Assembly (NCBI GenBank): GCA_019637295.1
Contig: JAHBVX010000014.1
Coordinates: 1 to 64,000 of the forward strand
DNA: 64,000 bases
Origin: Polyangiaceae bacterium
GTDB taxonomy: Bacteria > Myxococcota_A > Polyangia > Polyangiales > Polyangiaceae
Direction: 5' to 3'
Shown here: piece after piece, positions 1-15,748 of the stretch
Layout: each line of letters opens with the position of its first letter
Numbering within the stretch: the first letter of the stretch is position 1
Notes under the pieces: model-generated
What the model was told of the DNA's origin: nothing
What the model saw: only the letters and a program-made list of their open reading frames with translations
The model's database searches: none
Translations under genes and position numbers: made by a program

Positions 1-609
1 AACCCGCTGGCGCTCGATCACGCCCTTGGCTTCGAGCTTCACGCTGCCCACGGTGAGCTCGCCCTGCTCGATGTCGACCCGCGTGCCGTCCAATGCCAGC
101 TCTCCGCGCCCCCGCAGCCCGAGCTCGAGGTCGTGAACGCGCTGCTTGGCGAGCCACGGCTGTTCGAGCGCCAGCTTGGAGAGCTTACCGGTGCCGTGGC
201 CTTTGACCCGTCGGCCGTCGGCCGTGAGCCGCAGCGCCACGTCGGCCTGCACGGTGCTGCTGGCCACGTCCGACAGCCCGAGGTCGCCCTCCCGCACGCC
301 GAGCAACCCCAGGCTCACGGGCCCACCAGAGACGGAGAGCTCCACCTCTCCACTTCCGAGTGGCAACTCGAGGCTCACGCGCAGCGGCTGCGGCGCGGCC
401 AGCGCTTCGTCGTCCCCAGAGCGCCCGTAGCGCACGCCCCACGCGCGTTCCGGCTCGCCCCCCGCCAGCGCTCCGCTCCACTCGACGTTCAGTCCCGCGA
501 CCTCGATCGCCGCTGTCGATGAAGACGCGGAACCGCCGACCCGCGGCCGCCGCGCGGCATAGGCCAGAAGCTGTCGGCGCACGTCCTCGAGAGAGCCGCG
601 CCGCCGCCG
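1..609 (-). CDS. Partial AsmA-like protein, possibly the non-catalytic part of a peptidoglycan transglycosylase
   Basis: An open minus-strand frame runs off the window at base 1. It reads as real protein from about base 600 downward (RGSLEDVRRQLLAYAARR..., then alternating beta-strand segments such as GSGEVELSVSGGPVSLGLL and LDGTRVDIEQGELTVGSVKL). This strand-rich pattern resembles AsmA-type or DUF3971-like repeats, which in some myxobacterial proteins precede a GT51 transglycosylase domain; that assignment is a guess. There is no start codon with a leader: the frame is closed by a TGA at 664-666, directly inside the YD-repeat gene. The N-terminal part is therefore missing, and the fragment is fused head-on to an unrelated gene. 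It may be an assembly join or a deletion. Confidence 0.4.
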
Positions 610-3600
610 CGCCGCCGCCGCCGGCGCCGTTCGAGTCGGCGCACGTGCTAGTGGACGCGCACTTCACCAGGCCGTCCTTGTCGTACGCGTACGAGATCGT
701 CCCTGCAGCGCCCGCGGGGACGTAAGTCTCGCTGGTGACCTGCAGCAGGTCGTTGAACGTGCGGTCCACCGAGCCGCTGATGGCGCCGCTCCAGGTGGTC
801 TTCTTGTGCAGACTGCCCAGGTACTCGAAGGCCAAGTTCACGCCGGCGGGGCCGGTGATGGTCGCCAGCTGGCCGGCGCCGTGACCCGGGGCGGCGTGGT
901 AGGTGTAGGAGAGATTGCCGAGCGGGTGCGTCACGTCCGTGAGCCTGCCGCTCTGCTGATCGTAGCTGTGCGCGAGGTACAGGCCGTCGGGGCGCAGCTC
1001 GATGTCGAGGCTCTTGTTGGGCTTGTACGTGTAGAGCGTCAGCGGGCTGCCTTGTTGGAGATCCGGGGGCACGTAGCCGGAGAGCAGATCTTGCGTCGTG
1101 TAGTTCATCGCGTGGGTGGGCTTGCCGGGCGGCGTCAGGCTCTTCAGGTTGCTGCTCGCGTCCCACGCGAACTGAGTGGTCGCGGTCTGCGCCCCGGTGC
1201 CGAAGGTCTCGCTCAGGACGCGACCGAGCGCGTCCGGCACCAGCGTGCGGCTCTGGGACAGCGCGTCGGTCGTGGTGTGGAGGTAGCCGTTCTTGAGGTC
1301 GCTGCTGCCGGTGGCGTAGTACGCCAGGGACTGCTCGCGGGTGCCTTGCGTGATGGTGGTCAGCCGGCCGTGGGAGTCGTAGTTCATCTCCACGTCCAGG
1401 ATACCAGGTCGGGACACGGTGCGCACGCGGCCGCCAGCGTCGAGCAGCTCGGCGATGGTGCGGCCCTCGCTGCTGGTCGTGGTGCGCGTGGACGTGGACG
1501 CGGTGAACTGAACGGAGCTTGCCGGCGTGATGCCGTTGACCGTCGTGGTCTCGGTCCAGTCGCCGCCGCTGGAGGTGCGCGTGCGCGTGACGGTGCGCGT
1601 GTGCGTGGTGCCGATCGTCGTGACCTCCGTCTTGTAGTACGGGCTCTGCATACCCAGTACTGGATCCGGCGCGGGGGTGGCGTCCACCGACATGGTGTTG
1701 GGGTGCGCCACCGTCAGGGTGCCGTCCGCCTTCTTCTGGTCGATGCGCACGGTGCCGTCGGGCTCGGTGACGGTGCGCTTCAGACCACCGGCGGGGATGC
1801 GCTCCACCTCGTACTTGGAGACCAGGCCGGAGGCGTCTTCGTGGTGAACCTCGTAGCCCTCGGTGGCAGCGGGCTGCGGGAGCGGACGCGACAGGTACTG
1901 GGTCGCGCCGGAGGGAGCGCGATCTTCGATCAGTCGCCCCGCTCCGTCGAACTTGAAGATGTGATTGTACCCGCGCGCGTCCACCAGCTTGGTGAGCAGG
2001 CCGCTCGCCAGGTGGGTGAGCTCGATGTGATCGGGTGCCGACTGACCCGCAGACGTCACGGGGTAGGTGAGGGAGGACAGATAACCGTTCGAGTCCGTGT
2101 CGATCAGGGTCTCGTGTCCGAAGGGGCCCAGGATCTTGATCGGCGCGCCCGCGGTGTCGCGTACGATCTCCGTCACCAGATCCTGCGGGCTGGTGACGCC
2201 CGGGTGCTTGCGGCGAACCTCGGTGATGCGTTCGTGCGAGTCGCGCGTGATGGTGAGCACGGTGGCCCCGGTTCGCACGTTGCGTGTCTCGAGGTGGCGC
2301 CCGGCGGCGTCGAAGACGGCCTCGTGGTCGGCGTCGAGCGCCACGGAGATGTCCCCGGTGACCGGGCGCTCCGGGAGAGCAGCGCGAACCCGGAACACGA
2401 CGCCCCCCGTGTTCACGGCGTAGAGTGAGCCGTCGGGGGCGACGGTCACATGATACGCGGTGTTGAGGTTGACCCCGAGAGCTGGGGCGCCGGTCGCGAG
2501 CGCGCCGCTGCCTCCCCCCGCTACAGCACGAACGATGCCGGCGCTGTCGACGTGCCGGATGATCGTGTTCCCGTCGCCACTGCCGAAGTAGAACGAGCCA
2601 TCCGGGGCGGCGGTCACACCCTTCGGAGCGCCCGGCTGGAACTCGATCGCGCGGACACCGTGCACCGAGCCACCTCCACCGGTGAGCGTGCCGACCACGT
2701 TCCAGATGGTTCCGTCGGAGCGGAGCTCGTACACCATGCCGAACGTCCGGCCGAAGAGCACGCTGCCCTGGGGGGTCACGGCGATGCCGGAGTATTGTCC
2801 GGGCAGCACGCACGTTTCGGTGCCGAGGACGCCGGGCGTCAGCGTGAAGGGGCTCTGACTACAGCCTCCATTACCCGCAACGTTGCGCATGTCGGTGCGC
2901 GCGGCGTCGATGCGCTTGACGACCTTGTTGTCTTGGCTCCTGTCCACTACGTACAGCGTGCCGTCCGGTGCGAATGCGAGCCCCCCTGCACTCAGCGCGG
3001 CGGACAGCGGAGGACCTTCACCGTTTCCAGGCGTGCCAGTGCCCGCGACGTGACGCAGTCGGTAGTGGGTCGGATCCATGGGATCCGTTCCGACGAAGGT
3101 GCGCCGAAGCACGCGGTAATTCGATGAGTCGCTGAAGTAGAGTTCCCCTTCCGGACTCTCGGCGATGCCCTCAGGCAACAATTCACAACTCGTCGGGTCC
3201 ACGTTGTCGCCGCACGGGTTCGTTCCTCCGCCAGCGATCAGCGTCGTGTTGCCGCCCGGAAGGATGCGGTACACGCCGCCGTAGCCACCAACGTACACTA
3301 CCCCCTGCGCGTCGACGGTGAGAGTATTGTAGGGCATACCGGTCTTTATTACTTCGACGACGTTGCCCACCGTCTCCACGGTCCTTCGCTGCCCCGTGCC
3401 CAGGTGCAGCTCGCGGCCCTGCGGATCGTACCAGTGCACGTCGCTGAGAGACCAGCCGCCGAGGTCGTGGACTCGAGCGTCCATGCCGCCCAGAGTGACT
3501 GGAAAGGAGCGAGTGATGCGGATCACCTGTCGGTCCGTCGAAGCTGCAGCCATGCCCGACAGACTGGAGGCGAAGGCGGCAAAGTCCTCCGCGTCGTAGT

Positions 3601-6600
3601 AGACGGCGGGATAGACCTCGGACACGAGCAGCTGGCCCCGCTCCTCGCCGAGCGTGTACCGGCCGTACGCATCCTTCCCGTCCCACACGACCTGCTGGGT
3701 CGAGCCGTAGGCGTACTTGGAGTACTTCGACCAGTTGGTGATTCGCCCGCCGATGTTGAGCTGCGCCTCGAACCACATTCGCGCGTCCTTGGGCGTACTG
3801 GGCAGTCGGAAGGTCACGGTGCGCCGGCTGGCGTCTCCGGGAGTCCGGCTGCTGCGGTAGTGCAGCGACTGATCCGTGCCCGCCAGCGGTAGCGTCTCAC
3901 CGAGGGTCTGCGACTCGCACTCGATGATCGAGCCGGACTTGGTCGAGCTGCAGTCCGGGTCCGGGTCCGGTCCGGTGGCCGTGCCTTCGTCGTCGTTGTA
4001 GCAAGGGCCGCCGTCGTCGCAGCGCGGGGGGCCGTAGGGCCAGTTCAGGTCCCATGGCGTGAAGTGCGTCATGCGCGCGCGCCAGAGCTCGTCGCCAACC
4101 GAGTACGTGTCTCCCAGCGCGTCGAGCTCTTCGTCGGTGAAGCCCAGCTCCGAAGGCAGAGTGTCCGGATCGAGATCGCCGCCGGGCAGTCCGCTGTCGA
4201 GGTCGATCTCGGCGCGCCCGTTGGTGATGTCCGCGATGCGGATCACCCGGCCGCTCTCGGCGGCCTTCCAGTAGCCCGCTTCCTTGTCGTAGTAGCCGAG
4301 CGGCACGTTCGCGCCGACGCGGAAGCCGAGGAAGTTGTCGACGTAGAACGGGATGGCCACCGGCGTGGGCTCCGTCTCGCCGTCGTGGAACTCGACGCTT
4401 TCCGCGCCGTCGACGCCCAGCTCGACGGCGTAGGTGTAGCCGCTGGCTGCGGGCAGGTCGCCGGGCATGGAGTTGGTCGCGGCGCCCTCGCTCCACTGGG
4501 TGTACTCGCTGATCCGGATGCGGATTTGGCTCGGCTGGGAGCTGCCCGAGCCGGTCTCCACGGTCGCGGCTACGCCGTCCGGGATGAACAGCCGGCCACG
4601 GCGCTCGCGGTCGTCCGCGGAGGGCCCCTCGCTTACCAGCGGCCCGGTCACCATCTGCCCGGGTCCACTCGACGACGGGTTGAGGGTCACGTCAGCAAAG
4701 GTCGAGGTTGGCTTCACCAGGATCACGTCGTCGAGCGGGACGTACTCGTTCCAGGGCAGGACCTTGGTCGTGCGCTGGGACGCGAGGTAGCCCTCGCGCT
4801 CGAAGGTCACGGTGAGCGGAGCGCCGCCCTCTACCGCCAGGTCGAACCAGCCGTCGTCGCGGGTGAGCGTCTGTCCCCACGAGTCCTTCTTGCCGAGGAT
4901 GCTCACGACCACGCCTGGCAGGGGGAGCTCCGCGCCCGACTTGCTGATGCAGGTTGCTGGCGCAGTGCAGTCGCGACCGAGCACGCGACCGCGCAGCACC
5001 GTCACGCGCTTCGGATCGAGCGGGTCGATGGACGCGCCCGCGGGCTTGGCCTGAATGGGGTCTTGCCCGGCGTAGAGGAACGCGGTCGCGTCCGTAATCC
5101 AAGTGGCTGCCGTCGGATCGATGGGCGAGGGCACCGGCTCGGGCGCCGACTCCGCCGGCTCGTCGCAGCGGCCCGCGCCGTCGCACTCCATGCCTCCACT
5201 GTTGCAGCCGGCGGGGGTAGCCCCACGTGGGAGCGGCGTGTTCAGCACGCCGAGAAAAGCGTCACAGCTGTCAGCCGTGCAGGGGTTGCCGTCGTCGACG
5301 TCCGGAGCGGTGCCGCTCTGGCACGTGCCCGAGCCGTTGCACAGCTCCACGCCGTTGCAGGGATTGCCGTCGCTGCACACGGTGCCGGACGCCACCGGCG
5401 TCGCGCTGCACGTTCCAGAGCCATCGCACTCGTTGATGGTGCAGGGGTTGCCATCGTCGCAGGGCGAGCCCGAGGGCTTGGGGTCCGTGTACTCCGGACC
5501 CCCTCTCCCATCGCGGCACTCGAAGCACTCGTAGCCGGCCGGAGGCGCCGGATCGGGCAGGGCCACGCACTGGCCGCTCTGACACTCGGACCCGCCCGAG
5601 CACGAGCCACCCCAGACGCACGTGGTGCCGTCCGTCGCCGGCTCGGCGCTCATTCCGAGCACGGGATCGCAGGAGTAGACGAGGCAAGGGTCCCCGCCGC
5701 CGAATCCCGAACCGGCGCACCAGCCTCCCCGGCACGTCGCCGGGCCGTCGCAGGGGTTGCCTGTCGTGCACACCTCATCGTCCGGCAGCGGGACGTTCTG
5801 CACGCCATTGACGGGATCGCAAGAGTCGATGGTGCAAGAGTTGCCGTCGTCGGGGTTCACGCTGGCATGCCACACGCTGTGGGTCTGCTCATCGCAGAAG
5901 TCGAGCGTGCACGGGTTGCCGTCGTCCGTCGGGTTCGTCGCGGCGACGCACTGGTGGCTGGAGTTGCACTCCTCTGCGCCGTTGCACCACAGCCCGTCTT
6001 CGCAGCTCGTTCCCACCGTGTCGAAGATACTGCAGGGCTGTCGTAACGCCGCGTAGGCCTCCCCCTCCGTGTACGAGCCTGCCGTCGCCGTCACGAGCGC
6101 GAGCAGATCCGCCTTGCCGTCTCCGTTCACGTCGGCGGCGTGGCACTCGTCGCTGCCCGCGCAGAAGTCGTCGTGCGCCAGCGAGGCGGTCGAGAACGCG
6201 CTCCCGGTGGACAGCGAGACGGTCACCGAGCGCGGGGTCTGCCCCGACTCCGGGAACACCACCAGATCCGCCTTGCCGTCACCATCGACGTCACCGAGCC
6301 GCGTACGCTCACCGCTCCCGGCCAGGTTCGAGTGCCAGGTGCTGGCGGTGCCGAAGGAGCTTCCCGTGGACAGGGCGACTCTCACCACGTTCGAGCCGTC
6401 GATGCTGACGATGTCCGCCTTGCCGTCGCCATCCACGTCAGCCACGAGCGGAACGTGGCCGGCGGGAGCGAAGCTCGAGTGCCACACGTACGGGCCGTCG
6501 AAGCCGTCCCCGTTGGTCAGCCCGGAGCCCGTGGACAGGTACACCAGCACGGTGCCCGGCGAGTCCTGATCGAACGCCACGAGATCGGCGAGTCCATCGC

Positions 6601-7048
6601 CATTCGCGTCGGCCAGAAACATCGGCCCGGGCGGCTCCTCCTCCGACCAGACATCCGCGGCGTTCACGTCGAAGGACCAGCCCGTCGACGGAAACACGGC
6701 GATGCCGGTCTGCTCGAAGTAGACCACCATGTCGGCCTTGCCGTCGCCGTCCACGTCTCCGAACCCCGTCCACTCGCCGAGGAAGAAGTTCAGCCAGGCC
6801 ACGGGCCGATCGACCCCTTGCGTGGTCCCGAGCGCGACGTTGAAGTCCGCGTCGAACCAGCCTTTGTATTCGTGGGCGATGGTGTCGGCCAGGCCATCTC
6901 CGTTCACGTCTGCCACCCAACATGGGGTTCCCTGACAGGCCGTCACCGACGTGTACCAGATCGTCTCGGGGCCGAACCCCTCCGCCGTGGCGCGCCGGGC
7001 GAGCGCGAGGCTCGCGACCAGGACCAGCGCCGCAATCGTCCATTTCAT
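185..7048 (-). CDS. Giant secreted FG-GAP / Cys-rich / NHL / YD-repeat (RHS, teneurin-like) protein, 3' end disrupted
   Basis: The start is put at the Met of MKWTIAALVLVASLALARR, which gives a clean Sec signal peptide; an upstream ATG at 7108 adds 20 non-signal residues. In order: six FG-GAP/VCBS calcium-binding repeats (DVNGDGLAD, DVDGDGKAD and similar, about residues 45-315); a Cys-rich stretch with repeated DGNPCT-type motifs (about 340-640); a carboxypeptidase-regulatory-like fold; an NHL-type propeller (about 1270-1590); then YD repeats (YDSHGRLTTI, YTYHAAPGH). RHS/teneurin-like proteins form large surface or secreted shells and often carry a C-terminal toxin or adhesive tip. Here the frame loses all resemblance to RHS after STCADSNGAGGGG (near base 620). 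The last 140 or so residues down to the stop at 185 are an out-of-frame reading of a different gene, so no RHS core signature or tip domain is present. Confidence 0.8.
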   Translation of the reverse strand: MKWTIAALVLVASLALARRATAEGFGPETIWYTSVTACQGTPCWVADVNGDGLADTIAHEYKGWFDADFNVALGTTQGVDRPVAWLNFFLGEWTGFGDVDGDGKADMVVYFEQTGIAVFPSTGWSFDVNAADVWSEEEPPGPMFLADANGDGLADLVAFDQDSPGTVLVYLSTGSGLTNGDGFDGPYVWHSSFAPAGHVPLVADVDGDGKADIVSIDGSNVVRVALSTGSSFGTASTWHSNLAGSGERTRLGDVDGDGKADLVVFPESGQTPRSVTVSLSTGSAFSTASLAHDDFCAGSDECHAADVNGDGKADLLALVTATAGSYTEGEAYAALRQPCSIFDTVGTSCEDGLWCNGAEECNSSHQCVAATNPTDDGNPCTLDFCDEQTHSVWHASVNPDDGNSCTIDSCDPVNGVQNVPLPDDEVCTTGNPCDGPATCRGGWCAGSGFGGGDPCLVYSCDPVLGMSAEPATDGTTCVWGGSCSGGSECQSGQCVALPDPAPPAGYECFECRDGRGGPEYTDPKPSGSPCDDGNPCTINECDGSGTCSATPVASGTVCSDGNPCNGVELCNGSGTCQSGTAPDVDDGNPCTADSCDAFLGVLNTPLPRGATPAGCNSGGMECDGAGRCDEPAESAPEPVPSPIDPTAATWITDATAFLYAGQDPIQAKPAGASIDPLDPKRVTVLRGRVLGRDCTAPATCISKSGAELPLPGVVVSILGKKDSWGQTLTRDDGWFDLAVEGGAPLTVTFEREGYLASQRTTKVLPWNEYVPLDDVILVKPTSTFADVTLNPSSSGPGQMVTGPLVSEGPSADDRERRGRLFIPDGVAATVETGSGSSQPSQIRIRISEYTQWSEGAATNSMPGDLPAASGYTYAVELGVDGAESVEFHDGETEPTPVAIPFYVDNFLGFRVGANVPLGYYDKEAGYWKAAESGRVIRIADITNGRAEIDLDSGLPGGDLDPDTLPSELGFTDEELDALGDTYSVGDELWRARMTHFTPWDLNWPYGPPRCDDGGPCYNDDEGTATGPDPDPDCSSTKSGSIIECESQTLGETLPLAGTDQSLHYRSSRTPGDASRRTVTFRLPSTPKDARMWFEAQLNIGGRITNWSKYSKYAYGSTQQVVWDGKDAYGRYTLGEERGQLLVSEVYPAVYYDAEDFAAFASSLSGMAAASTDRQVIRITRSFPVTLGGMDARVHDLGGWSLSDVHWYDPQGRELHLGTGQRRTVETVGNVVEVIKTGMPYNTLTVDAQGVVYVGGYGGVYRILPGGNTTLIAGGGTNPCGDNVDPTSCELLPEGIAESPEGELYFSDSSNYRVLRRTFVGTDPMDPTHYRLRHVAGTGTPGNGEGPPLSAALSAGGLAFAPDGTLYVVDRSQDNKVVKRIDAARTDMRNVAGNGGCSQSPFTLTPGVLGTETCVLPGQYSGIAVTPQGSVLFGRTFGMVYELRSDGTIWNVVGTLTGGGGSVHGVRAIEFQPGAPKGVTAAPDGSFYFGSGDGNTIIRHVDSAGIVRAVAGGGSGALATGAPALGVNLNTAYHVTVAPDGSLYAVNTGGVVFRVRAALPERPVTGDISVALDADHEAVFDAAGRHLETRNVRTGATVLTITRDSHERITEVRRKHPGVTSPQDLVTEIVRDTAGAPIKILGPFGHETLIDTDSNGYLSSLTYPVTSAGQSAPDHIELTHLASGLLTKLVDARGYNHIFKFDGAGRLIEDRAPSGATQYLSRPLPQPAATEGYEVHHEDASGLVSKYEVERIPAGGLKRTVTEPDGTVRIDQKKADGTLTVAHPNTMSVDATPAPDPVLGMQSPYYKTEVTTIGTTHTRTVTRTRTSSGGDWTETTTVNGITPASSVQFTASTSTRTTTSSEGRTIAELLDAGGRVRTVSRPGILDVEMNYDSHGRLTTITQGTREQSLAYYATGSSDLKNGYLHTTTDALSQSRTLVPDALGRVLSETFGTGAQTATTQFAWDASSNLKSLTPPGKPTHAMNYTTQDLLSGYVPPDLQQGSPLTLYTYKPNKSLDIELRPDGLYLAHSYDQQSGRLTDVTHPLGNLSYTYHAAPGHGAGQLATITGPAGVNLAFEYLGSLHKKTTWSGAISGSVDRTFNDLLQVTSETYVPAGAAGTISYAYDKDGLVKCASTSTCADSNGAGGGGAAAARLSRGRAPTASGLCRAAAAGRRFRVFIDSGDRGRGTERRVERSAGGGRAGTRVGRALRALWGRRSAGRAAAAAREPRVATRKWRGGALRLWWAREPGVARRAGGRPRAVGRGQQHRAGRRGAAAHGRRPTGQRPRHR

Positions 7049-7205
7049 GATGGCGGGCTTTCGCCCCACCACCGACCCGGGCCAACGCCCCGCCACCGTG
7101 CTCGACATCGTGCAGCGAGCCTACGGCATGGTCGCGGCGGCCCGCGCACGGCGCGCTGGACTGATTGTTGGGGACTCGTGCGGAGTTAGGGTCACGCGAC
7201 GGCGG

Positions 7206-9643: not shown

Positions 9644-10039
9644 TCAAGCAAGCACGAAGCCCGCGAGGCGTGCCGCCTTCCGGTCGAACGTCAGCGTATG
9701 CCGGCACCCGGCCTTCTCGCCGAGCGCTGCGATCAGGGCGTCGGCGAAGGAGCCTGCGCCCTCCGCTAGCGCGGTCATTGCGGCGAATACTTGCTGTTCG
9801 TCCTCGACGACCAACGCTTCGACTTGCAGCATTCGCTCGATGGCCGATGCAATCTCTGCGGCAGCGAGGCCGTAGGCCCGCTCCAATACCCATGCCGTCT
9901 CCGCCATCACGACGACGCTGACGAAACCGGGATTGTCGACGCTCAGCTCGCTCTCGATGATGCGCGTCGCGGTCTGCGACTGCCGGGCATCGTCCTGGAC
10001 CAGGTAGCGAACGAGAATGTTCGTATCGAGGCCAATCAT
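9644..10039 (-). CDS. vapC: VapC-family PIN-domain toxin (ribonuclease)
   Basis: 131 residues with PIN-domain landmarks: MIGLDTNILVRYL carries the first catalytic Asp (D5); a Glu in MAETAWVLERAYGL (near 46) and the segment SFADALIAALGEKAG provide the distal acidic residues; HTLTFDRKAARL closes the fold. VapC toxins are Mg2+-dependent ribonucleases that block translation by cutting tRNA or rRNA. The start codon overlaps the last 4 bases of the antitoxin gene, so the two are translationally coupled and antitoxin is made first. The length is normal for the family and all catalytic positions look present, so the toxin should be active. Confidence 0.9.
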   Translation of the reverse strand: MIGLDTNILVRYLVQDDARQSQTATRIIESELSVDNPGFVSVVVMAETAWVLERAYGLAAAEIASAIERMLQVEALVVEDEQQVFAAMTALAEGAGSFADALIAALGEKAGCRHTLTFDRKAARLAGFVLA

Positions 10040-10302
10040 TGTCTGGGGCGGCGCCGCGCCTTGTCGAGTGCGCCGCCGGCCACGGCTTCATTCATTTCCT
10101 CGAGCGTCACGGCGCGGCCTTTGCGACCGAGCATCCCGCGCATCGCCGAAGCCGGAAGCTTGGGCAACAGGACGACCGTTCCGTTCGGGTGTTTGAAGAA
10201 CTTCACCCGGTCGCCGGGCTTCAGCTTGAGATACTCGCGGATCTCTTTGGGGATTGTCGCCTGTCCCTTGGCTGTGATCGCGGACTCCAACTCGGCCTCC
10301 AT
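10036..10302 (-). CDS. vapB: AbrB/SpoVT-type antitoxin of the VapBC pair
   Basis: 88 residues. The N-terminal half is a swapped-hairpin AbrB domain (SAITAKGQATIPKEIREYL...LKPGDRVKFF), which dimerises and binds DNA. The C-terminal tail (MRGMLGRKGRAVTLEEMNEAVAGGA) is the amphipathic helix that normally plugs the toxin active site. It is the first gene of the pair, and its ATG lies inside a perfect inverted repeat that also covers the -10 box, so autorepression by the VapBC complex is likely. Confidence 0.9.
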   Translation of the reverse strand: MEAELESAITAKGQATIPKEIREYLKLKPGDRVKFFKHPNGTVVLLPKLPASAMRGMLGRKGRAVTLEEMNEAVAGGALDKARRRPRQ

Positions 10303-10345
10303 TACTTTCTATGGAAAGTAATACCAACCGAACGGCGTGTGTCAA
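10301..10345 (-). promoter_or_regulatory. vapBC promoter with operator palindrome over the -10 box and start codon
   Basis: Reading the minus strand, a perfect -35 box TTGACA (10345-10340) is followed after 16 bp by TATTAC (10323-10318) as -10. A perfect 9-bp inverted repeat, ATTACTTTC/GAAAGTAAT with a 4-nt spacer (arms 10322-10314 and 10309-10301), covers the -10 box, the likely transcription start and the first bases of the vapB ATG. Only about ten bases of leader would remain. The AT-rich site stands out from the surrounding GC-rich DNA. Confidence 0.7.
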
Positions 10346-10427
10346 GCGCGGGGCACGCAACCTCGAGACGAGCGCGGCGAGGCCGCGGCCGCGCCCGCTC
10401 GTCCGCGTGGTGCTATCGTCGCGCGCC

Positions 10428-11753
10428 GTGACACTGCAGAACCTCGAGGCCGCGGACCTGGAGCGCGCGTGCGCGTTGCTGGAGCGCCTGTACGATCAGC
10501 GAAACGTCATCCATGACAAGGGCGTGCGGGTGCCGTCCACCTTCGCGGCCGCGGATCTGGCGTGGCTCGACGAGCGAGGGCTCGCGCCCAACCAGCGCAC
10601 GCGCGTGACCCACGACGCGCTGGTGACGCGCATCGTGAAGAGCAAGCGCACCCGGTCCATCGCGGACGCGGCGCGGCTGTTCGTGGCGAGCCTCGATGGC
10701 GATGGACCGCCGCACGGCGCGTATCTGGAGGCGGGGCTGCTCGCAGCCCGGCTGCCGGCCCACCGCTTCGCGGGCGGCGCCAAGGGCTCCGCGTCGTGCC
10801 CGATCTGTGGGCTCGAGCGCGAGGTGGTGCGCGACCGCGCCGAGGAGTTCATGCAGTGGCACCGCTGGGGCAGCGGCATCCCGGGCGACCTGCCGTGGGC
10901 GGCGCTGGCGCTCGAGCAGTGGCCGCGCGGGCCTGCGAAGCCGTCGCCCGCGGCGCGCCGACACCTAGCCGCCATCCTGCTGGCGCTCGACGCGTTGCCG
11001 CCGGCCGCGCGGGCGGGCGCAGCGTTCTCGGCGGTCCGCGCGCTGGGACTGTTCGCCGAAGATCGCCACGGCGCCGCGTCGCGCAGCGTGGTCGAGACGC
11101 TGGCGTTCGCCGGGATCCTCGAGGCGCCGCCGCACGTGGGCATGGCCACGCGCTTCGTGTCTCACCGCGAGCGCGACGCGCGGCCTACGGTCCGCACCGA
11201 GGTCGACGCTCCCCTAGGCTTCTGGCGCGGCGCGAACGGCGTGAGCTGGAGCAACGCCAAGACCCTGTTCGGGGTCACCAAGGCGACGGCGACGCGTGAT
11301 GCGAAGCGCGCCGCGCCTGCCGCCGCCCGCCCGCCACCGCGCCGCTCGCGACCGGCTGCCGCCAAACCGGTCCGCGGCCTCCCCCGCCGGCCCGCCGCCC
11401 CGGGCGACGTGTGGGCCGTTCGCGTTCGGGAGGACGCCTGGGTCCTCGCCTACGTGTGGCGCACCCAGCGCTCCGGCGGGCGCGTGTGGGCGCTGGCCGA
11501 GTACCTCGACTGGTTCGGCAGCGCTCCACCGGAGGCGAGCGCGCTCCGTGGCATCGGCGTGCGCGGCCGCCACGATGGGCGCTGGCAGACTCGCGCGCAC
11601 GGCTTGGAGAAGACCACCGGACTTCTGCTCGTCGCCGAGAAGGTGCCCGCGCCGAAGACGCGCGGGCCCGCACCGGATCGCATCCCGTCGGGCGGCGCGA
11701 AGGATCTGCTCCAGCTCGCGGACTGGTGCTTCTCCGAACTCGACGAGCTCTGA
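10428..11753 (+). CDS. Hypothetical protein with CxxC site and basic Pro/Ala linker
   Basis: 441 residues from GTG at 10428; an upstream in-frame ATG at 10311 lies inside the vapBC operator and its first 39 residues look non-coding. No known family was recognised. The N-terminal 100 residues are helical with basic patches (LVTRIVKSKRTRSI). A CPICG motif near residue 124 could be half of a zinc site or a redox pair. A basic, proline-rich linker (about residues 290-320) leads to a C-terminal domain with VWAVRVREDAWVLAYVWRTQ, which reads like a small beta-barrel. No signal peptide, so cytoplasmic. It converges with the RiPP-like locus but shows no link to it. Confidence 0.6.
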   Translation: MTLQNLEAADLERACALLERLYDQRNVIHDKGVRVPSTFAAADLAWLDERGLAPNQRTRVTHDALVTRIVKSKRTRSIADAARLFVASLDGDGPPHGAYLEAGLLAARLPAHRFAGGAKGSASCPICGLEREVVRDRAEEFMQWHRWGSGIPGDLPWAALALEQWPRGPAKPSPAARRHLAAILLALDALPPAARAGAAFSAVRALGLFAEDRHGAASRSVVETLAFAGILEAPPHVGMATRFVSHRERDARPTVRTEVDAPLGFWRGANGVSWSNAKTLFGVTKATATRDAKRAAPAAARPPPRRSRPAAAKPVRGLPRRPAAPGDVWAVRVREDAWVLAYVWRTQRSGGRVWALAEYLDWFGSAPPEASALRGIGVRGRHDGRWQTRAHGLEKTTGLLLVAEKVPAPKTRGPAPDRIPSGGAKDLLQLADWCFSELDEL

Positions 11754-11849
11754 ATGCGCCCGCAAGCTGCAATCAGGGCATCGGGCAAGTCGCGTGAAGT
11801 CTCCCTACGGTGACTTCATCGCCGTCGCCTGCGCTCGAGCGTCGAAGGC

Positions 11850-12206
11850 TCACCAGCAGCACATGACGGTGGTCTGGGGATGGGTAAGTGGGCTCTTGAG
11901 CGGGGGTCCCTTCAAGGTGGGGAGCTGCTGGATCTTGACCGTGGGCGCGGGCGCGCTCGAGCCGCCGGTTCCACCCACGACGCCGTCGAGCTGGCTGTCG
12001 GACAGCTGTGGGTTGATGGTCTGCTCCGTGGCGTCCATCACTTGGATCAGCTCCTCACGGGTGAAGGAGAAGCCCGCGCTCTCGCCCTCGGCGAGGGCCA
12101 GACGAATGTACGCCTCCCGCCCTTCGGCGTCGTCTAGACGCGCCTTCAGCTCGGCGTTGGTGAGGACATGGCCCTCGAAGAACTTCACGAAGCTTTCCAT
12201 GGACAT
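11850..12206 (-). CDS. Nif11-type RiPP precursor peptide
   Basis: 118 residues. The start is fixed by an AGGAG eight bases upstream of ATG 12206. Residues 1-79 match a Nif11-class leader: N-terminal helix MSMESFVKFFEG, the (D)AEGREAYIRLA helix, GFSFTREELIQVM, then the terminal LSDSQLDGVVGG double-glycine motif where C39-type peptidases cut. The predicted 39-residue core starts near T80 and is rich in Pro, Ser/Thr and Lys; it contains KIQQLPTLKGPPLK and ends TTVMCCW. Leaders of this family direct RiPP enzymes to the core. Upstream on the same strand lie a glycosyltransferase and a radical SAM/SPASM enzyme, the likely modifying enzymes. No transporter or peptidase gene is adjacent. Confidence 0.85.
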   Translation of the reverse strand: MSMESFVKFFEGHVLTNAELKARLDDAEGREAYIRLALAEGESAGFSFTREELIQVMDATEQTINPQLSDSQLDGVVGGTGGSSAPAPTVKIQQLPTLKGPPLKSPLTHPQTTVMCCW

Positions 12207-12214
12207 CGATCGAA

Positions 12215-12219
12215 CTCCT
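12215..12219 (-). promoter_or_regulatory. Shine-Dalgarno site that fixes the precursor start
   Basis: AGGAG on the minus strand, 8 bases before ATG 12206. A longer open frame reaches back into the glycosyltransferase gene, but this site marks the short 118-residue form. It lies in the 124-bp gap after the glycosyltransferase stop, so the peptide may be translated independently and at a higher level. Confidence 0.7.
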
Positions 12220-12330
12220 GTCTGGCGGAGGCGAGGCTGTGCACGCGCACCTCCCGGTTCCCTGCGCCGTGATGATGCCACACTTCCAGGCCGCATGGAG
12301 GTCCGATTGCGGAGGCCGGCGGGGAGCCCC

Positions 12331-13473
12331 TCACCATCCTCGCCCCGCGCGAGCGGCGTCGCGGTACACCTCCAGGTGCGCCGTCGCGGACCGGTGCCAC
12401 GAGAACTCGCGGCTGCGCTCGAGGCCGGCGTGGGACAGCTCACGCCACAGGGTCGCGTCGTGAGCGATGCGCTCGAGCGCACGCGACAGCGCCTCGGCGC
12501 GCAGTGGGACGTGCAGCGCCGCCCCGCCCATCACCTCGCGGAGCGGCGCGATGTCACTGGCGACGACGGGGGTGCCGCAGGCGGCCGCCTCGAGCACCGG
12601 CAGGCCGAAGCCCTCGAAGCGGGAGAACTGCACCAGGGCCGTGGCTCCCTGCAGCAGCTCGAGCAGCTCCGAGTCGGTGACGGCAGGTAGGGAGAGGAGC
12701 CGATGGCGGATCCCGAGGCGTCGCGCCTCGGCTTCGAGCCCGCGGCCCCAACGGCTCTTGTACAGCCGTTGCAGCAGCACGAGCCGGTAGTTCTTGGGCA
12801 ACCGCGCCCGCGCGAAGGCGTGCAGAACCGCTGCGTGGTTCTTGCTCGGCGTGTTCTGGCCCACGACGAGGAAGTAGGGGTCCACAATCCCGAGTCGCTC
12901 GTCGAGCCGCCGCTCCACCGCCGCGCGCTCTGCGGGCGGGCGAAAGCGCGCATCCACACCGTGGGGGATGACTCGGAGTCGAGGCGCGGCCCGTGGCGCG
13001 CGAGCGAGGATAGCGTCGGCGCTGGCGCTACTGATGGTCACGATGCGGGTCGCTCGCGTGAGAGCGCGCAGGATCCCATCTCGGTAGAACAACACCTTGG
13101 CCGGAAGCAGCGGCGAGACGGCCTCGCACAGCGTGGGTCGGTCGAGCCACATCAAGTCATGGATGGTCACGACCGTCGGCACCTGGAGCCCGCGACCGAG
13201 CAGGTTGAACGGCGCGTGAAGCACATCGATGTCCTTCAAGTCGCCGAGGCGGCTCGGACGGAGCAGCGTGCCCAGACCGTTGGCGGGGGCGCGCACGACG
13301 GTCTCGGTCACCGTCGGCTCGGACGAGAGAGGTCGCGGCGCGCGCGGGTGGACCCATAGCTCGAAGGTCGAGTCCGGCGCGAGCCGGGGCAAGCGCTCGA
13401 TGAGTGCGCCCACGTAAGCGCCGATGCCGCTCGGGCGCTCACGAACGTAGCGACTGTCGAGGCACACGCGCAT
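12331..13473 (-). CDS. GT4-family glycosyltransferase of the RiPP-like locus
   Basis: 380 residues with a GT-B fold. The N-terminal domain begins MRVCLDSRYVRERPSGIGAY, whose Gly-rich loop is typical of retaining GT4 enzymes. The C-terminal domain has FLVVGQNTPSKNH (start of the nucleotide-binding domain), IPHGVDARF, and the E-x7-E signature EGFGLPVLEAAACGTPVV. No membrane segments. It transfers a sugar from a nucleotide-sugar to an unknown acceptor. Its ATG is 3 bases after the radical SAM stop (TGAGTCATG), so the two are co-translated, and the precursor gene follows 124 bp later. That context suggests peptide glycosylation, but GT4 enzymes also act on lipids and polysaccharides, so the acceptor is open. 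Confidence 0.85.
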   Translation of the reverse strand: MRVCLDSRYVRERPSGIGAYVGALIERLPRLAPDSTFELWVHPRAPRPLSSEPTVTETVVRAPANGLGTLLRPSRLGDLKDIDVLHAPFNLLGRGLQVPTVVTIHDLMWLDRPTLCEAVSPLLPAKVLFYRDGILRALTRATRIVTISSASADAILARAPRAAPRLRVIPHGVDARFRPPAERAAVERRLDERLGIVDPYFLVVGQNTPSKNHAAVLHAFARARLPKNYRLVLLQRLYKSRWGRGLEAEARRLGIRHRLLSLPAVTDSELLELLQGATALVQFSRFEGFGLPVLEAAACGTPVVASDIAPLREVMGGAALHVPLRAEALSRALERIAHDATLWRELSHAGLERSREFSWHRSATAHLEVYRDAARAGRGW

Positions 13474-13476
13474 GAC

Positions 13477-14490
13477 TCACACCACCGGCAAGTGCCGTCG
13501 CTCGCCGCGGCTGGGCTCGGCCTTGCCCTCCGCGGGCTCGAGCATCTGGTCGAAGCGCCCACCCCAGGCCAGGTTCTCCTCGACGACGCGCGCGCACCAG
13601 CACTCGGAGCAGCCGCCCCGAACGAGGCGATCGAACGCCGTGCCCGCGCCGACCTCGACCACATTCGGAGCGTCGTGGGCGCGACTGACCTGGCCGCAGT
13701 GATGTAAATCCCCCTCGGGGCCCAGGGTGACGTTGATGATGCCGGCGGCGCAAGGTACCCGCGTGGGCTCGGGGTAGCGACGGAAGTGTCGCAGGCTGCT
13801 CCAGCGATTGTGGACCGGGCTGCCGCCGCGCTTGCGCGCTTCCACGCGCCGGAACGCGCGCCGCACCTGAGCAGCGGCCGGCACGAAGCTCGACCCGTCC
13901 CGAGGGCTGTCCAAGAACAGGCTGGGCCGCACCGGCTGAAATACGATCGGCAGGCCCCGGGCCTCGACGAAGTCGAGCAGCTCGTCGACGAGCTCGTAGT
14001 TGTGAAGGCCAATCACGCAGGTGAGCTCGACCGGCGCTCCGGCCTCGCGGGCCGCGTCGATGCCGGCCATCGCCTTGTCGAAGGCGCCGGCGCCGCGCAT
14101 GCGATCGTGCGCTGTGCGAGGTCCATCCAGGCTGATCTTCACGCGCGACACCAGCCGAATGGTCGCCAGGCGCTTGGGCACCAGGATGCCGTTGGTGTTC
14201 ATGTGTACGGTGACACCGTGCTGCACGAGGAAGGCGGCGATCTCGTGGACGTGAGGGTGGGTCAGGGGCTCGCCGCCGTCGAGCGAGACGACGCGGGTGC
14301 CGAGCTCGACGAACTGGGCGAGCGCGCCGAGGATCTGCTCGCGGCTCATCTCCGTGGAAGAAGGCGTGTGGCGATCGCAGTACGTGCACGCGAGGTTGCA
14401 CAGATGCGTGAGCTCGAACCCGAGCGAGTGGGGGACCGGCGCGATGCCCGCACGAGCGCCCAGGATGCGCGCCAAAGCCAAGGGTTGCAT
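13477..14490 (-). CDS. Radical SAM/SPASM-domain enzyme, candidate RiPP maturase
   Basis: The radical SAM cluster motif CNLACTYC (CxxxCxxC) lies near residue 30 after SLGFELTHL; DGGEPLTHP is the GGE motif that binds the SAM amino group; KISLDGPRTAHD follows. The C-terminal third is a SPASM-like region with CAAGIINVTLGPEGDLHHCGQ and later CSECWCARVVEEN, enough Cys for an auxiliary 4Fe-4S cluster. Such enzymes install thioether, C-C or epimerised residues in RiPPs (sactipeptide, PqqE and mycofactocin types). I use ATG 14490; a GTG at 14577 gives 29 more residues without a ribosome site. It is the first gene of the three-gene unit with the glycosyltransferase and Nif11 precursor. Confidence 0.85.
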   Translation of the reverse strand: MQPLALARILGARAGIAPVPHSLGFELTHLCNLACTYCDRHTPSSTEMSREQILGALAQFVELGTRVVSLDGGEPLTHPHVHEIAAFLVQHGVTVHMNTNGILVPKRLATIRLVSRVKISLDGPRTAHDRMRGAGAFDKAMAGIDAAREAGAPVELTCVIGLHNYELVDELLDFVEARGLPIVFQPVRPSLFLDSPRDGSSFVPAAAQVRRAFRRVEARKRGGSPVHNRWSSLRHFRRYPEPTRVPCAAGIINVTLGPEGDLHHCGQVSRAHDAPNVVEVGAGTAFDRLVRGGCSECWCARVVEENLAWGGRFDQMLEPAEGKAEPSRGERRHLPVV

Positions 14491-14602
14491 CCGCGATCGC
14501 CAGTGCAACCCGCATGCCGCACCGATGCGGCGCAGATCCGTCGCACCGTGCGCGTGGCGCACAGGGCGAGGGTTCACAGGTGTCGCCGACGGGAGGCTAT
14601 GC

Positions 14603-15748
14603 TCAGTCCGTACTGGCGTCGCCCGCGCCGGCGTCAGCGCCAGCGTCCGGCGTTGCGCAGGACGCGTTGTCCGCGCCGCCGTCCGGGCCGTCGAAGGCCG
14701 TGCCGAGCTCCACGTTGGCGAGCACCGCGTAGGCGTCGAACGGGATGTTCACCGAGTCCCCGGTGGGGATCGTGAAGGTCGTGCCGCTGACCTGCCCGTT
14801 GGTCATCGCGCCAGCGGGCAAGCCCGCCGAACCGACGCCGAAGTCGTCGAGCACGGCGAGCAGGTGCTTGGTGCCGCTGCCGACGACGAAGCCCTCGACC
14901 GTGAACGGCGACGTGCCGGAGAGATCCCCGCACAACGCGCTGCCGAGACCCCAGACGTTCGTGGTCGGGGCGACCTGGACGCCATCGACGGCGACGAAGG
15001 TCAGCGGGCCTTGGCCGTCCCCCTTGGGGCTCGCGCCAGACGCGCGACTGACGGTCAACGCCAGCTTCCGGAGCGCGATCAGCTTGCGCACGATCCCCGT
15101 GCCCTCACCCGCGGTGAGCGAGAGCTCGTAGAGCGGCGGGGTGCCCCCGATGCCGTCGATGAGGTCTATTCCGGCGAACCACACCCCGGGCAACGGCGCC
15201 CCGGCGCTCAGCACCGCGTCGTTGTCGACGAAGATGGCGCGCGCGTACAGCTTGTCCGTCGCGGACAGTCCGTCGAATCGGATCGGAGCCGCGGTGAGCT
15301 GAGCCAGCGTCGCCTCCACGAACCCCGCGTCCGCGCCGCCATCTTGGGCGGGCAGCAGCTGACTCGCTATCGGCGTCGCGCCCAGCGCCGGCGTGGGCGT
15401 GTCGAAGATCTCGACGAACAAAACGCCCTTACCGTCGAACGCCGGGTTCGACGGGAGGAACTGGATGGTCTCTGGCTCGAGCGCGAGGCACAGGGCTGCC
15501 TTCGTCGAATCCGAGGGGTCGTCGCAGGGCACAGTGGTTCCGCCGTCGCCCGCCGTGCCCCCGCTGCCTGCGGCGGCTGCGCTGCCACCCGTGCCCGCCC
15601 CGCCTCCGCCGGTGCCGCCGGTGCCGCCCACGCTCCCGCCGGTGCCGCCGGTGCCGCTGGGCGGACGAGGTCGGTCATCGTCGTCGCTCCCGCACGCCCA
15701 CAGCAGCAAAGCTCCCGTCGCAACCGCCCACAAGAATCGCTGGCTCAT
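14603..15748 (-). CDS. Secreted lipoprotein with Gly/Thr-rich linker
   Basis: 381 residues from ATG 15748. The signal peptide MSQRFLWAVATGALLLWACG has a lipobox Cys. A 45-residue linker made almost entirely of Gly, Thr, Ser and Ala (GGTGGTGGSVGG type) leads to a 270-residue domain with no recognised family. That domain is strand-rich, with phrases such as VLFVEIFDTPTPALGATPI and LTFVAVDGVQVAPTTNVWG, and ends in an Asp/Ala-rich tail with paired Cys. The long linker style is typical of Polyangia surface lipoproteins and probably spaces the domain from the outer membrane. The gene ends 113 bp upstream of the radical SAM start on the same strand; a functional tie is not evident. Confidence 0.7.
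   Translation of the reverse strand: MSQRFLWAVATGALLLWACGSDDDDRPRPPSGTGGTGGSVGGTGGTGGGGAGTGGSAAAAGSGGTAGDGGTTVPCDDPSDSTKAALCLALEPETIQFLPSNPAFDGKGVLFVEIFDTPTPALGATPIASQLLPAQDGGADAGFVEATLAQLTAAPIRFDGLSATDKLYARAIFVDNDAVLSAGAPLPGVWFAGIDLIDGIGGTPPLYELSLTAGEGTGIVRKLIALRKLALTVSRASGASPKGDGQGPLTFVAVDGVQVAPTTNVWGLGSALCGDLSGTSPFTVEGFVVGSGTKHLLAVLDDFGVGSAGLPAGAMTNGQVSGTTFTIPTGDSVNIPFDAYAVLANVELGTAFDGPDGGADNASCATPDAGADAGAGDASTD

Follow-up and report, generated by a model that had tools for sequence, protein, structure and literature searches.

In the Srp system, the brominase SrpI is guided by the leader, depends on this leader as well as on a Trp at the C-terminus, and modifies the LCCCW core of the precursor SrpE (PMC10286304). 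In the Mpp system, MppI is a halogenase working on a Nif11-leader lanthipeptide, with MppE as precursor and MppM as LanM (PMC11791876). The precursor genes of the prochlorosins are scattered over the genome (PMC10783134).

The locus discussed here lies in a window (the whole stretch of 64,000 nucleotides that was analyzed) and contains a Nif11-type precursor gene that has a paralog on another contig (C20) of this genome. The precursors and the C20 cluster share with Srp (PMC10286304) a long leader, a run of C-terminal Cys followed by a terminal Trp and a tryptophan halogenase, here putatively leader-guided; Srp, however, has a leader of proteusin type and relies on a YcaO cyclodehydratase, whereas here a Nif11 leader, a split LanB and MBL proteins are found and one halogenase carries a leader-binding-type N-terminus. 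The likeness to Mpp (PMC11791876) concerns the Nif11-like leader, the combination (predicted here) of dehydration or ring formation with Trp halogenation, and an L(X)4L spacing upstream of the site of cleavage, but Mpp has another core and uses a LanM in place of split LanB and MBL proteins, and is not known to have a remote second precursor. As for the prochlorosins (ProcM/ProcA, PMC10783134), the leaders belong to the Nif11 family and a precursor gene lies away from the modifying enzyme, but they have a LanM and many precursors, in contrast to the single remote precursor and the LanB/MBL/halogenase set described below. Finally, as in split-LanB or thiopeptide-type dehydratases (Lant_dehydr_N plus SpaB_C, TIGR03891), the two halves reside on separate proteins; unlike them, the C20 SpaB_C half is fused to an MBL fold and neither LanC nor YcaO was seen in its cluster. 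The Srp, Mpp and prochlorosin precedents are analogies, and do not establish that the C20 enzymes act in the same way.

The window precursor and its paralog

The preliminary description had placed three genes on the minus strand between positions 11850 and 14490 of the window, and coordinates and Pfam matches bear this out: a radical SAM enzyme of 337 aa (13477..14490; Radical_SAM, 3.8e-24), a GT4-family glycosyltransferase of 380 aa (12331..13473; Glycos_transf_1, 3.7e-21) and a Nif11-type RiPP precursor of 118 aa (11850..12206), recognized by its Nif11 match and its C20 paralog. The TGA stop of the radical SAM gene is followed after 3 bp (GTC) by the GT4 ATG at 13473, and 124 bp separate the GT4 gene from the precursor ORF on the same strand. 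A scan of positions 11500-14800 detected neither a same-strand terminator-like site nor a sigma-70-like promoter, a result which says little for a high-GC host whose promoter types are unknown. Because of the common strand, the short gap and the lack of a terminator-like site, co-transcription of the precursor with GT4 is possible. No maturation or export gene stands beside the precursor. Directly downstream of it and convergent to it, a 480-aa protein without Pfam match is encoded (10311-11753, plus strand); further along, on the minus strand, are a VapBC-like pair of PIN-domain toxin and MazE/AbrB-type antitoxin (9644-10302) and a 2307-aa protein (185-7108) in which FG-GAP-like and YD/RHS-like repeats were recognized by eye.

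An AGGAG ribosome-binding site was read from the sequence at 12215..12219, ahead of the precursor ORF. The leader (residues 1-79, 11970..12206) contains the L(X)4L spacing and ends in LSDSQLDGVVGG, with its GG cleavage site, after which comes, as in Nif11-leader precursors, a core of 39 aa (residues 80-118, 11853..11969), TGGSSAPAPTVKIQQLPTLKGPPLKSPLTHPQTTVMCCW. The core finishes with T-V-M-C-C-W-stop (11850..11870), a tail common to the precursors located at MBL/LanB genes in G000:C20, G009:C712 and G150:C360. The Nif11 model PF07862 matches the peptide at 2e-5 and 25.2 bits, over its cut-off of 23.8, and the NCBIfam Nif11 leader model TIGR03798 gives 30.5 bits, slightly below its cut-off of 32.3. 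Searches of 145 genomes from the order and 379 from the phylum gave a single homolog, the paralog of the same genome at G000:C20:394795-395163, with 54% identity (61% in the leader, 41% in the core). Both peptides carry the site PQLSD[SN]QL[DE]GVVGGTG and a VKxQxLPxLKxP stretch in the core and end with T[VI]MCCW, and the last 24 nt of the two genes are 96% identical. Their dN/dS is about 0.38 overall, 0.26 for the leader and 0.74 for the core (NG86, approximate values since synonymous changes are near saturation), which suggests that both copies are kept by selection. Since the paralog keeps the length, the leader, the GG site and the C-terminus, the window ORF is not a fortuitous one, and its sequence features identify it, as first proposed, as a genuine RiPP-type (Nif11) precursor. 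The genome does possess maturation and export genes, but these are beside the C20 paralog, away from the window copy.

The radical SAM/GT4 pair across genomes

In the radical SAM enzyme, about 30 residues stand ahead of the first Cys of the motif C31-x3-C35-x2-C38, and GGE is at 72-74. The "SPASM-like Cys set" previously attributed to it stands only in part: five C-terminal Cys are invariant among the orthologs (C247-x12-G-x4-C265 and C294-x2-C297-x-C299), whereas the canonical SPASM motif has seven, and the Pfam SPASM model gave no match at E 0.1. The C-terminus thereby resembles a reduced SPASM or twitch domain. Pfam detected no RRE (leader-binding) domain in this enzyme or in the scanned neighboring genes of the window, although divergent RREs can evade Pfam. 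Membership in a known radical SAM equivalog was considered and rejected, the 25 best NCBIfam families all being far below cut-off (best 87 bits versus 500). Both sequence and fold designate as the closest solved relative the cytosylglucuronate decarboxylase BlsE (about 21% identity), which decarboxylates a sugar acid carried on a nucleoside; the RiPP maturases SkfB and SuiB come behind BlsE, and PqqE is also matched. The AlphaFold model is good only over the barrel and poor beyond residue 272, so it is chiefly the rSAM barrel that underlies these fold matches. Among NCBIfam families, the GT4 enzyme is nearest to TIGR04047 (MSMEG_0565 family; 111 against a cut-off of 260), and neither enzyme belongs by score to the family of its nearest match.

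Clear orthologs of the radical SAM enzyme (48-63% identity) are present in seven genomes among the 184 of the order that were searched, subsequent matches falling below 40%. A GT4 ortholog adjoins them in four (L124, L125, L127 and L129), in an operon-like arrangement for the first three and convergently in L129; the other three have no adjacent GT4. None of the seven genomes, three of which are 77-84% complete, has a Nif11 peptide match at E 0.01, and the control genome was positive. Most of the inspected pair loci leave little space for another precursor: L124 and L127 are packed, L125 having more intergenic space, upstream. A hidden precursor at the orthologous loci was also looked for, with only chance-level matches to either precursor. 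The preliminary description had taken radical SAM and GT4 for maturases of the peptide and proposed to look for their co-occurrence with it; these counts, with the pair in four other genomes and no Nif11 peptide in any of the seven, do not support the maturase reading and led us to reject the trio as one cluster. It had named as contrary evidence homologous pairs found regularly without a precursor and within polysaccharide clusters: the former were encountered, whereas clear polysaccharide clusters were not seen around the orthologs.

Relatives of the GT4 enzyme are common in the order (34 of 180 genomes at E 1e-60), mostly without this radical SAM gene or such a peptide alongside. At the eight GT4 loci inspected the neighbors vary, seven having no relative of the window radical SAM beside GT4; at one of the eight (L211), a different radical SAM gene adjoins it. 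A role directed at a sugar or a lipid seems most likely for the pair, a view we hold with low confidence. Two side observations can be added. The GT4 ortholog match in L127 (G468:C610:4036-5133), in a genome of low completeness, has one in-frame TAA, due to either a sequencing error or decay. More distant radical SAM relatives (29-36%) occur in several genomes (L124:224-4627, L125, L136, L138 and L140), some of them adjoining a gene whose product begins with VKVAFVYPPFYAKPFNENLPTVDDEFGLFPHIGFG, and could represent a separate conserved pathway.

The C20 cluster and the T-x-M-C-x-W tail

The paralog opens a large RiPP cluster (G000:C20:374367-395163; loci L084 and L141). On the minus strand and starting from the precursor, the genes encode a 754-aa MBL/SpaB_C fusion, a 580-aa MBL protein whose tail is weakly TIGR04500-like, a 686-aa protein with the LanB glutamylation domain (Lant_dehydr_N), a cyclic-nucleotide-binding protein of bacteriocin-transport type (TIGR03896, below cut-off), an NHLM HlyD, an NHLM ABC1 with a C39 peptidase, an NHLM ABC2, an adenylate/guanylate cyclase, a tryptophan halogenase whose N-terminus is extended by about 350 aa, and a Cupin_8/JmjC protein. 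On the opposite strand lies a second halogenase of similar build, with 53% identity over the halogenase part. The genes are tightly packed, with gaps of 87, 9, -4, 49 and -8 bp. Lant_dehydr_N scores 77.4 bits (9.1e-22) against a cut-off of 28, and SpaB_C 71.8 against 24.4 (TIGR03891: 84.9 bits against 48.45), so C20 would harbor a LanB-type (class I-like) RiPP system. The exporter matches are strong (941 bits for ABC1, 292 for HlyD, 826 for ABC2), as are those of the halogenases to Trp_halogenase (9e-106 and 2e-113). The GGGTAG and WCWNIP motifs of flavin-dependent halogenases are intact in both halogenases and HxHxDH is kept in both MBL proteins. The extension of the first halogenase matches TIGR03882, a TOMM leader-peptide-binding protein, at 7.6e-8 and 32.7 bits, below the cut-off of 36.9; that of the second gives no TIGR03882 match. 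Among the cluster proteins scanned there is no LanC, radical SAM enzyme or glycosyltransferase, and no YcaO was seen in the cluster. Pairs of halogenase and Cupin_8 are known from non-RiPP contexts too.

We scanned 379 genomes for the tail pattern T-x-M-C-x-W and obtained 23 matches, spread over 19 genomes. Of these matches only four end a convincing precursor ORF, the others appearing to be out of frame or due to chance; as the pattern was drafted after viewing these four sequences, their agreement with it is no independent test. Within the source genome, only the window peptide and its C20 paralog match. Relatives of the MBL/SpaB_C protein exist in 10 of the 379 genomes at 1e-15, most matching the MBL part only. 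In G009:C712, a precursor ending with STVMCPW precedes such a relative, in a cluster (L156:46-11331) which comprises an MBL protein, the LanB halves, a B12-binding radical SAM enzyme, a CAAX-type protease and a DMATS-type aromatic prenyltransferase of Trp type (PF11991). The G150:C360 cluster (L157:5317-13714) has a precursor with a signal-like N-terminus and the ending STTMCPW, along with a B12-binding radical SAM enzyme. An elimination-type domain (SpaB_C, TIGR03891), fused or separate, is found in all three tail clusters, weakly in G150 (19.4 bits). In the Nif11 search, neither the G009 nor the G150 precursor came out as a Nif11 peptide, so precursors with unlike leaders have in common the tail and its terminal Trp. 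No halogenase is encoded in these two clusters, distant relatives being only on other contigs. The Trp-type prenyltransferase of G009 again points to the tail Trp, which makes a Trp-directed enzyme family in two of the three tail clusters. In G081, a distant MBL/LanB relative (L158) is present and a T-x-M-C-x-W precursor was not found. By eye, a 270-aa protein of the G150 cluster resembles the product of L158:9572-10384, neither having a convincing Pfam family.

Two probable units side by side and the alternatives

We consider it likely that the window precursor and the radical SAM/GT4 pair are two unrelated units and that the peptide serves as a remote second substrate of the C20 RiPP system. 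The basis of this reading is homology, synteny, co-occurrence and motif conservation; we infer from it all the chemical steps, as well as the in-trans relation of the window peptide to the C20 enzymes. The Nif11 leader of the window peptide would recruit these enzymes in trans, and the split LanB would dehydrate Thr/Ser near the precursor C-terminus. The MBL proteins may carry out metal-assisted chemistry on Cys residues, possibly ring closure, given that the C20 cluster showed no LanC. A halogenase would modify the C-terminal Trp of T-x-M-C-C-W, and the C39/NHLM exporter would cleave after GG and then export the product. On this view the window peptide probably undergoes dehydration and, at its C-terminal Trp, halogenation; what LanB and the MBL proteins do, which halogen is introduced and on which substrate the halogenases act are family-level assignments. 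Radical SAM and GT4 would constitute an independent conserved module that most likely produces and transfers a modified sugar or has a lipid, rather than the peptide, as its substrate. Several points go against this scenario: the possible co-transcription of precursor and GT4, the incompleteness of three of the seven ortholog genomes, the 41% identity between the paralog cores, the non-Nif11 leaders and the absence of a halogenase in the G009 and G150 clusters, and the halogenase/Cupin_8 pairs of non-RiPP contexts.

The same strand, the close spacing and the lack of a same-strand terminator-like site between the genes, together with the matches to SkfB, SuiB and PqqE, would fit a radical-modified and glycosylated RiPP matured by its own neighbors. 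This is nevertheless quite improbable, and local modification of the peptide unlikely: the pair is conserved without a Nif11 peptide and mostly with little room for a precursor, the radical SAM enzyme has no detected leader-binding domain, a Cys set short of SPASM and the sugar-acting BlsE as top match, and the C20 cluster of the paralogous peptide lacks both enzymes. The only homolog of the peptide is accompanied by another, complete set of RiPP enzymes. One could also regard the window gene as a copy of the C20 precursor that is in decay or not expressed and no longer yields a product, given its diverged core and the absence of maturation and export genes alongside; the intact ORF, the ribosome-binding site, the dN/dS of about 0.38 and the retention of the leader, the GG site and the tail, with its nearly identical last 24 nt, make this improbable. 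We give similarly little credit to a distal system of PEARL type (peptide aminoacyl-tRNA ligase), in which the LanB-like protein would add amino acids to the C-terminal Trp of a disposable scaffold peptide. Lant_dehydr_N is indeed a separate protein in C20 and pathways are already known in which a scaffold peptide is built upon at its C-terminal Trp, but all three tail clusters contain the elimination-type domain (that of G150 weakly), which PEARLs are not known to have.

The open-access papers searched yielded no description of a Nif11/radical SAM/GT4 set or of an MBL/split-LanB RiPP, and the C20 pathway is apparently an undescribed variant of LanB/halogenase RiPP pathways, "undescribed" referring to the open-access papers and family libraries searched and the comparison genomes being a sample of one phylum. 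More tentatively, and with doubt prevailing, one may imagine a RiPP class defined by a T-x-M-C-[C/P]-W tail on unrelated leaders, in which MBL proteins, one of them fused to the LanB elimination domain, replace LanC for the ring or thiol step, the terminal Trp receives a halogen or a prenyl group, and a second substrate is encoded far from the cluster. For the window itself, the analysis corrects a pathway assignment that relied solely on gene adjacency and was plausible but is probably false, and it indicates a better one. If the C20 proposal is true, a Nif11 leader, a split LanB, an MBL fold and a Trp halogenase of leader-binding type would be newly combined, with no example in the open-access literature searched; with the short conserved tail, substrates would be easy to predict and genomes easy to mine, and RiPP cyclases of MBL fold would represent new enzymology.
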